From Bdellovibrio bacteriovorus (GTDB lineage Bacteria > Bdellovibrionota > Bdellovibrionia > Bdellovibrionales > Bdellovibrionaceae), in contig NZ_LUKD01000001.1 in the NCBI RefSeq assembly GCF_001592745.1, positions 242,489 through 306,488 on the forward strand: 64,000 bases of DNA. The letters are read 5' to 3'. Below, piece by piece: positions 60,979-63,666 of this stretch. The notes below the pieces were generated by a model. It was not told the DNA's origin, did not search any database, and saw only the letters and a list, made by a program, of their open reading frames with translations. A program made the translations under genes and the position numbers. Numbering within the stretch: position 1 is the stretch's first letter; the number at the start of each line of letters is the position of its first letter.

Positions 60979-63651
60979 ATGAGATTTTTATTCCCGCTGA
61001 ACGTTTTGATATGGGCTCTCATACCGGCTCTGCTATGGGCTACGCCTAATTCTTTGAATTATCAAGGGCGCATCTTGAAAGACGATGGCACTCCTCTTTT
61101 ATATAATAATGTCAGCTTTAGTTTTGAGATCACGAATGCGGCAGAGACTTGCATCATGTACCGTGAACAGGTGAACGGTGTAAACCTTTCTGCGACCAAA
61201 GGTGTTTTTGATATCTCCATTGGTAGTGGCACAAAAATCTATCCCACCACCGCTTTTCAACTGAGTGAGGCCTTTCAAAGTGGTGTTTCTATAAATTGTG
61301 ATGGCACCGCTCCGATCACGCCGACGGCGATCGAGACGCGCAAACTGCGTGTTCAATTTTTTGACGGATCTACCTGGAAGTCGATCACACCTGCTTTAGA
61401 AATACACTCTGTCCCTTTTGCTTTCTCAGCAGCAAAATTAGAAGGCAAATCAGCATCAGACTTTGTTATTAAAACAGGGCTTCCCGTCTGCGGAGCAGGA
61501 ACATTTCTGTCGTGGTCCGGATCTGCCTTGACGTGCGAAGGTGTGACGGGATCTAACGGCGGAACCGTTACCAATGTGACTTCGACTAATTCCTATTTAA
61601 GTGTCACAAATGGAACTTCGACTCCCGCATTAACTTTAAATGTTGGCACGACGGCGAATACGGTCGCCGCGGGGAATGATTCGCGCTTTACGGACTCACG
61701 AAACCCTACAGGCACCGCAGGCGGAGACCTTGGCGGGACTTATCCAAGCCCTGATGTTGTCAAACTTCGTGGTGTGGCCGTGGCTTCAACAACACCTACC
61801 GCAACAAACAATCTTTTAAAATTTGATGGCACGGGTTGGGCTCCGGGGTTTGTGACAATCTCAGATGTGCGATCGACCGCCGCCGGCAATACGACCTTCT
61901 TTCCAACAACCTGCACGACAGCGCAAACTTTGAATTGGGAATCGGCGACAGATAAATACATTTGCGCCGACATTGCAATTCCCGATTCTAAAATCACCTA
62001 TGCTTCGCAAACAGCGAAAACATTTTTTGCAGCCCCGACCGCAGGCGGCGCTCCTAGTTTTCGCGCGATCGCTTCTTCGGACTTACCGACAACGGGTGCT
62101 GATGGCGTCTTGATTAATGGTGGAAATACATTTTCTGCGAACTCTTCCATTGGTTTAAAAGATGCTTTCAATCTTAGTCTTCTAACAAATAATTCTCCCC
62201 GATTGAGCATCCTGGGCTCGGGGCAAGTAGGAGTGCAAACTTCAACACCGCCAGCCCCGTTTACTGTTCAGAACTCATTACTCGCCACAGCCTCGTCAAC
62301 GGCCGCAGCACTCACGCCGACGCAGGTTTTAGTGAATGATGCCATCGATTTGCCGACGGGCCAACAAGCGAGTCTGTTGGTCCTTAGTCAACCTACACAA
62401 ACTGCGAATGGCACGGGTCAATATAACGCCGCCGTCTTTGATATTAACTCCAACACGGGCGCATTCAATTTGCAGGGGACGCGTGGCCTTATGGTTATCA
62501 ATACAAAGAATGGGTCCGGCACCGTCAGCAACCAAGTGGGCGGCATTGTCGGAAGCCTCTTGAAAGAAGGTACAGCAACCAGTCAGGCCGGGTTTCAGGT
62601 GACGGCTTCGGCAAGCGCAAGCACAACTCTTGGAAACCAGTATGGAACAAGCTCTTCTGTGACAAATACATCTTCAGGGACCGTCACCGTTCAAACGGCT
62701 TATCAAGGCACCGCAGTCAATTCGAGTGGCTCAACGGTGACGAACCAACACGCACTTTTTGCTTCCTCGACCAACTCGGGAACGGCGGCGTCCCAATACG
62801 GAGTTTTATCAAAGACGACTCATGATGCCGGCAACACTTTGCCTACGCAGTATGGAACTTATACGGTGGCCTCTAATAATGGTTTAGGAACCATCACAAA
62901 TGCACACGGTAATTTCAATCAGGTCTTTAATGCGGGAGCTGGCACCACCACCAATGCTTACGGTACTTTCAGTCAAATTTGGAATGACGGCACGGGAACG
63001 ATTGACAAGGCCTATGGATATTACGCCGATGTCTACAACCCCAATGGTGGAACTGTTGCCACTGGTTACGGATTGTATTTGGGTTCTGTCAGCGCCACTG
63101 CGAAATGGTCCATCTGGGCGAATGATGCCACAGCACCGTCGTATTTTGCAGGCAGGATCGGTATTGGAACCGCAACACCGACACACAATCTTCAAGTGGA
63201 AGGAACGGCGGGATTAAGTACGGGAACAGCTTGGACGAATACGTCAGATATTCGACTTAAAGATATTCAAGGAGATTACGAATACGGTTTGAATGAAATT
63301 TTAAAACTTCATACCGTGCGTTTTACCTACAAGAAAGACAACCCTTTAAAGCTTTCTTCGAAGCATAAGATGACAGGATTTATTGCGCAGGAAGTACAAA
63401 AAGTAATTCCTGATGCCGTCAAGGTTCGTCCGGATGGGTATTTAGAGTTGAACGTCGATCCTATTCACTGGGCGACCGTCAATGCTGTTCAGGAACTCAA
63501 TGGCAAATGTGAAATGTCTCAAGAGCAGGTGTCTGCACTAAAACGTGAAGTCTCTTCTTTGAAAGAAGAAAATACTTTACTGAAGATGCGGCTTGAAAAA
63601 CAGAATCAAGATTTAGAGATGATTAAAAAGAAATTGGGGCTTGCTGATTAA
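60979..63651 (+). CDS. Secreted tail-fibre-like protein with S74 chaperone domain (MAT-like)
   Basis: 890 residues. A signal peptide (LIWALIPALLWA) precedes an N-terminal domain starting NSLNYQGRILKDDGTPL. Long Thr/Ser/Gly-rich beta regions follow. Residues about 530-705 contain seven or eight degenerate repeats of roughly 22 residues built around a Tyr-Gly core and an Asn-x-Gly-x-x-Thr turn (for example NAYGTFSQIWNDGTGT). The C-terminal segment reads GRIGIGTATPTHNLQVEG, then TSDIRLKDI, then MTGFIAQEVQKVIPDAV, the peptidase S74 intramolecular chaperone. Ser756 and Lys761 match the Ser-Asp-x-Arg-x-Lys autocleavage site. A coiled coil (845-887) ends the protein. The layout matches trimeric host-recognition fibres and the MAT proteins of Bdellovibrio. 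Confidence 0.8.
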   Translation: MRFLFPLNVLIWALIPALLWATPNSLNYQGRILKDDGTPLLYNNVSFSFEITNAAETCIMYREQVNGVNLSATKGVFDISIGSGTKIYPTTAFQLSEAFQSGVSINCDGTAPITPTAIETRKLRVQFFDGSTWKSITPALEIHSVPFAFSAAKLEGKSASDFVIKTGLPVCGAGTFLSWSGSALTCEGVTGSNGGTVTNVTSTNSYLSVTNGTSTPALTLNVGTTANTVAAGNDSRFTDSRNPTGTAGGDLGGTYPSPDVVKLRGVAVASTTPTATNNLLKFDGTGWAPGFVTISDVRSTAAGNTTFFPTTCTTAQTLNWESATDKYICADIAIPDSKITYASQTAKTFFAAPTAGGAPSFRAIASSDLPTTGADGVLINGGNTFSANSSIGLKDAFNLSLLTNNSPRLSILGSGQVGVQTSTPPAPFTVQNSLLATASSTAAALTPTQVLVNDAIDLPTGQQASLLVLSQPTQTANGTGQYNAAVFDINSNTGAFNLQGTRGLMVINTKNGSGTVSNQVGGIVGSLLKEGTATSQAGFQVTASASASTTLGNQYGTSSSVTNTSSGTVTVQTAYQGTAVNSSGSTVTNQHALFASSTNSGTAASQYGVLSKTTHDAGNTLPTQYGTYTVASNNGLGTITNAHGNFNQVFNAGAGTTTNAYGTFSQIWNDGTGTIDKAYGYYADVYNPNGGTVATGYGLYLGSVSATAKWSIWANDATAPSYFAGRIGIGTATPTHNLQVEGTAGLSTGTAWTNTSDIRLKDIQGDYEYGLNEILKLHTVRFTYKKDNPLKLSSKHKMTGFIAQEVQKVIPDAVKVRPDGYLELNVDPIHWATVNAVQELNGKCEMSQEQVSALKREVSSLKEENTLLKMRLEKQNQDLEMIKKKLGLAD

Positions 63652-63666
63652 GCAAACCCCTTTTTT
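63636..63666 (+). terminator. Intrinsic terminator of the fibre gene
   Basis: Stem GGGG-TTGCT/AGCAA-CCCC with one internal mismatch, overlapping the stop codon and followed by T6. Confidence 0.75.

Follow-up and report, generated by a model that had tools for sequence, protein, structure and literature searches.

How do predatory bacteria recognize their prey? The question is still open, and the fibres formed by mosaic adhesive trimer (MAT) proteins are the leading answer to it. The stretch of Bdellovibrio bacteriovorus DNA analysed here, a window of 64,000 nucleotides, contains an intact open reading frame of 890 residues that raises this question for a single gene: is it such a fibre, and if so, what does it carry at its recognition end? 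As a family member the protein is ordinary, a new member of the MAT family that has already been described. What is noteworthy is the clean boundary of its tip cassette, together with the spread of the tip's repeat module over bacterial classes and viral contigs. We estimate a probability of roughly three in four that the gene encodes a surface fibre for prey recognition, of the MAT type and with an exchanged tip, in a Bdellovibrio-type predator. The features on which this reading draws are collected in Table 1.

Table 1. Features of the fibre gene and its product; positions are counted from the first letter of the window.
Feature	Position	Strand	Remarks
MAT fibre gene, S74 type	60979..63651	+	890 aa; start codon ATG, stop codon TAA
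Putative Sec signal peptide, residues 1-21	60979..61041	+	cleavage after LLWA, read from the translation by eye
MAT N-terminal domain, residues 14-166	61018..61476	+	NCBIfam NF053851; proposed location at the predator surface
Stalk, residues 167-412	61477..62214	+	distal part 70% identical to paralogue at C1:628 kb
Proximal capping loop V417-F428 (VGVQTSTPPAPF)	62227..62262	+	alignment to solved Bd3182 tip 8ojn
Start of tip cassette, pre-array, residues 429-501	62263..62481	+	kept in orthologues and L110
18-residue Tyr-Gly repeat array, residues 502-714, ~12 units	62482..63120	+	model of residues 605-711 mainly beta strand
Distal capping loop I727-L738 (IGIGTATPTHNL)	63157..63192	+	alignment to 8ojn, MyRF structures and bd2133
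S74 chaperone/protease domain, residues 756-815	63244..63423	+	Pfam PF13884
Predicted catalytic Ser756	63244-63246	+	SDIRLK motif
Predicted catalytic Lys761	63259-63261	+	SDIRLK motif
C-terminal coiled coil, residues 841-890	63499..63648	+	weak coiled-coil family matches; modelled helix
Intrinsic-terminator-like hairpin over stop codon, then T run	63636..63666	+	by eye from sequence

The assignment to the family follows from both ends of the protein. Its N-terminal region, which the first-pass annotation had read as a domain of the NYQGR type, matches the NCBIfam model Bdello_MAT_N, which describes the beta-rich domain conserved behind the signal peptide of MAT proteins, with 188.8 bits, far above the cut-off of 60, and the Pfam S74 model scores 48.7 bits against a cut-off of 22. 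The S74 domain opens with SDIRLK, which fits the SDxxxK motif described in MAT proteins (PMC10769870) and places Ser756 and Lys761 five apart, exactly as had been claimed. Ser-Lys dyads with this spacing are described for endoNF (S911/K916) and MyRF (S587/K592) (PMC8326128). The proposed MAT membership is backed not only by these curated models but also by the solved tip of Bd3182, an S74-type MAT protein of B. bacteriovorus HD100, whose structures PDB 8ojn, 8onb and 8onc were matched. Two smaller proposals agree with what was found: the N-terminus resembles a signal peptide (MRFLFPLNVLIWALIPALLWA, followed by T) when judged by eye, and the expected final coiled coil corresponds to a C-terminal helix modelled at residues 826–885, with pLDDT values of 85–92 across much of the distal part.

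The gene belongs to a large repertoire. This genome holds 16 S74 proteins and 21 MAT N-terminal domains, and by position 14 genes combine both; for HD100, 13 S74 and eight non-S74 MAT proteins were reported (PMC10769870). The SDxxxK dyad is kept in every one of the 16 S74 proteins, while the full Tyr-Gly array is confined to the present gene among the genome's S74 and MAT_N proteins. Two other S74 proteins (L006 and L015, at G000:C8:184997 and G000:C8:324525) were not matched by the query for the MAT N-terminal domain and may therefore rely on another kind of anchor.

Since both the S74 domain and the array resemble phage fibres, could the gene be the tail fibre of a phage or prophage instead? 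This is hardly credible for a protein that begins with a signal-peptide-like N-terminus and a MAT_N domain, of which 20 others are scattered over the genome. The gene's surroundings argue against it as well: aconitase, Sir2, MsrB and a BatD-like operon are neighbours conserved across the genus.

Between stalk and chaperone lies the array itself, which had been described as seven or eight Tyr-Gly repeats of 22 residues. The repetition is real, as none of 2000 shuffles reached the autocorrelation peak of the protein, but this peak lies at 18 residues (z 9.8) with a second one at 36 (z 8.2), and the stated period is therefore wrong. Five clear units run from Y607 to G696 (residues 607–696), and around 12 units of 16–20 residues each can be read by eye in the whole degenerate array, which makes the earlier count a reasonable undercount. 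Tandem Repeats Finder reported no array at this gene when run on the DNA, so the repeats are detectable at the protein level only. A position matrix built from six seed units, four of this protein and two of the orthologue in G009, recovers its seeds (by construction) and a weaker unit at residue 555. In addition it detects a weak unit apiece in two further S74 proteins of the genome; shuffled sequences reach a higher maximum score than any of the weak units.

Where does the tip begin, and where does it end? The solved Bd3182 tip (8ojn) aligns on either side of the array, at residues 392–431 and 724–754, which places a capping loop at each border of the tip. The proximal one departs from the usual pattern: it has Gln at a position occupied by Gly or Asn in most loops. 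With both loops anchored by the alignment, the interval between them amounts to about 290 residues, mostly the 18-residue Tyr-Gly array, in contrast to about 80 in Bd3182 with its O-antigen-like cleft and short triple beta-helix. The likeness to Bd3182 extends to the segment before the predicted cut site, which aligns, and to the common SDxxxK motif. When solved structures were searched with a profile of the array, only the bd2133 capping loop came out below an E-value of 0.01.

The second comparison comes from within the genome. The paralogue L027 (G000:C1:628 kb, 1434 aa) shares 88% identity in the S74 domain, for which the next-best paralogue reaches only about 38%, as well as 70% in the distal stalk and 56% in MAT_N. 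The alignment drops at the first capping loop, near residue 420, and resumes at the second. Unlike the tip described here, that of L027 is longer and without Tyr-Gly repeats; the two appear unrelated, with no similarity found between them except a 16-residue loop match. As chaperone and distal stalk are common to both fibres and the tips are not, the tip behaves as a cassette, and its function could be tested by comparing the two. The MAT trait of a diversified C-terminal tip on a common scaffold is found here twice, in this paralogue comparison and in the presence of the module on a second scaffold, which will be described below. The best-supported account of these alignments is that the fibre tip is an exchangeable cassette, cleanly bordered by two capping loops. 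Such a tip would have been exchanged in nature and is clearly delimited, and its scaffold has a chaperone with 88% identity to the one in L027. The gene product is very probably a self-cutting MAT surface fibre whose recognition tip has been replaced.

What fold might the array adopt? A single-chain model computed from a six-row alignment of residues 595–755 reached an overall pLDDT of 70, with about 72–81 over the array, and a pTM of 0.62; in it, a long strand segment and a short turn make up each 18-residue unit. A Foldseek search of this model against PDB and BFVD gave no significant match. In a second look at the list, C-terminal adhesin domains of tapirins stood at the top, with Z values of 11.4–11.8 and 2.7–2.8 Å over 122 residues at Foldseek E-values above 1. 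Left-handed hexapeptide helices were discounted as the array fold on account of an alignment at about 10 Å, and a single-chain model of tip plus chaperone (478 residues, pLDDT 46) was too poor to serve as a guide to the tip and was dropped. For an expected trimer seen as one chain, the array model points tentatively towards a beta-solenoid in which every repeat supplies one coil. The competing arrangement, a triple-stranded beta-helix intertwined from all three chains, comes close to an even chance. The solved Bd3182 tip and phage S74 stalks are intertwined in this way (PMC10769870, PMC8326128), and the array is flanked by capping loops of the Bd3182 type. One solenoid per chain would agree better with a single-chain model that yields a strand-rich segment for each unit and with the tapirin domains as best second-look matches, yet the Foldseek probabilities of the latter are 0.04–0.08.

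The history of the gene can be followed through its orthologues. The whole cassette was found in three of 24 species examined in the genus, namely this one, G001 and G009, and other MAT proteins of the genus have weaker arrays. The three full-length genes occupy one common site adjoining the BatD-like gene. Elsewhere the site is without them: G020 lacks a fibre gene there, a gap of 12 bases separating BatD from the small neighbour gene, and in G007 MsrB adjoins BatD. A different S74 MAT fibre gene is present in the BatD-aconitase interval of G005 and G019 (L113, L114), in another position and orientation. This interval also varies in other genes, with three similar open reading frames of about 460–480 aa in G018 (L117).

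With a single genome compared per species, the array is 97% identical to that of G001, free of indels and under a dN/dS of 0.06. Against G009 the identity amounts to 59% in the array, 68% in the N-terminal domain and 89% in the S74 domain, with one insertion of a single residue in the array; over the longer time span, the chaperone has thus changed more slowly than the tip. The first-pass annotation had expected a repeat region that varies between strains and had suggested alignment across relatives to look for mosaic exchange. Variation in repeat number is unsupported by the closest pair of species, in which the array is conserved like the rest, and by the one-residue difference to G009. At the level of whole tips, the expectation holds in part: tips differ between paralogues and scaffolds, and some species have the gene at the locus while others do not.

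These rates bear on a further possibility, that the array is a mere spacer which lengthens the fibre, while recognition takes place elsewhere or by another protein. Regular repeats, purifying selection and constant length in the closest pair would suit a structural rod. We nevertheless regard a pure spacer as unlikely, because the array takes the place of the cleft in Bd3182, would form the distal end of the fibre after cleavage, and in G009 has diverged faster than either the chaperone or the N-terminal domain.

One further pattern concerns the other end of the gene. In the comparison with the locus of the closest species (L081 in G001), third-codon-position identity is 0.62 over the first 261 codons (60979–61761) and 0.82 over the rest, a shift found in none of 500 shuffles. 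Gene conversion in the N-terminal region is possibly behind this change near codon 261. A search for a donor of these codons found none, for which reason the shift was rejected as proof of recombination between G000 and G001.

How would such a fibre work? The direct basis of our reading is the domain content, the dyad, the repeat period, the cassette borders and the occurrence of one cassette on different scaffolds; export, trimer formation, cleavage, glycan binding and the role in prey recognition we infer from what is known of the family. The fibre would be exported by way of its putative signal peptide and anchored at the predator surface through the MAT N-terminal domain, in line with the surface display of MAT proteins (PMC10769870). 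S74 chaperone and coiled coil would then assemble three chains and fold the beta-rich tip. A self-cut before Ser756 would release residues 756–890 and leave a mature fibre of about residues 22–755. Known cleavage takes place before the serine, at S782 in Bd3182 (PMC10769870) and at S587/K592 in MyRF (PMC8326128), and the coiled coil is accordingly predicted to leave with the chaperone. What would remain is the Tyr-Gly cassette, most likely as an extended rod of beta-helical or solenoid type, which may bind a glycan of the prey surface along its side or at its end; glycan binding has been reported for another MAT protein (PMC10769870). Single MAT deletions rarely affect predation (PMC10769870), which makes a role towards prey hard to see.

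The proposed scheme resembles that of endoNF, T5 pb1 and the ICA domain of MyRF, which have in common with the present protein a Ser-Lys dyad five apart, a C-terminal helix and a beta-rich stalk before the cut. They differ in their tips and in being anchored to a virion or membrane, whereas a MAT N-terminal domain takes this place here. S74/ICA domains need a trimer context to cleave (PMC8326128), and one could imagine a dyad that is present but inactive, with the chaperone remaining at the tip. This appears improbable. Ser756 and Lys761 are intact in a domain that is 98% and 89% identical in the two orthologues, the dyad is retained throughout the paralogues, and cleavage does occur in Bd3182 (PMC10769870), whose junction AGLSTG(T/S)AWT closely resembles the one here.

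How widely does the cassette of this fibre occur? In L110, from another class of the phylum (G193), residues 413–748 are present at 42% identity, and many Tyr-Gly and turn positions are invariant. This second scaffold is unrelated in its N-terminal part, which looks like that of a lipoprotein and was not matched by the MAT model, and it has an extra tip segment ahead of its own S74 domain. Beyond the phylum, related arrays occur in the Bacteroidetes MAG GWF2_35_48 (L111), where the array is joined to S74, and in the contigs L125, L127 and L129, which are taken as phages by their membership in the IMG/VR collection. For one of these viral contigs the Smith-Waterman score was 271 against a shuffled maximum of 114, and L125 holds the module in two copies. 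All four proteins outside the phylum share the repeat signature, of the GTITNAYG type. In L111 and L125 a motif resembling a capping loop follows the array, and S74 forms the end of L111; unlike the present fibre, these two did not match the MAT_N model when scanned, and L125 is without a Pfam S74 domain.

Searches of other kinds returned a mixed picture. Two alignment queries against the viral contigs and one against the genome contigs gave no match, and a query from the conserved array end matched two viral contigs. The array alone found neither a PHROG nor an annotated phage genome, and where the full protein did match PHROGs, its S74 part was responsible. The repeat module is without a sequence relative among solved structures and in common with proteins of viral contigs. 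One might go further and picture the Tyr-Gly cassette as a mobile receptor-binding module, in which every 18-residue repeat makes one coil of a beta-solenoid and the tyrosines stack into a ladder, and which is swapped between the fibres of predators and phages across classes and phyla, with the capping loops as universal joints. In this full form the idea is rather doubtful.

The surroundings of two of these relatives show further fibre-like genes. At the L110 locus, three long open reading frames adjoin each other on the minus strand. A lipoprotein-like N-terminus recurs in similar form in two of them, of which one carries the Tyr-Gly cassette; the other open reading frame gives a weak MAT_N match of 24.2 bits, under the cut-off. 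The L111 locus contains four consecutive long open reading frames with similar ends, one of which is confirmed as S74 with an array, and looks like a tandem cluster of fibre genes outside predators.
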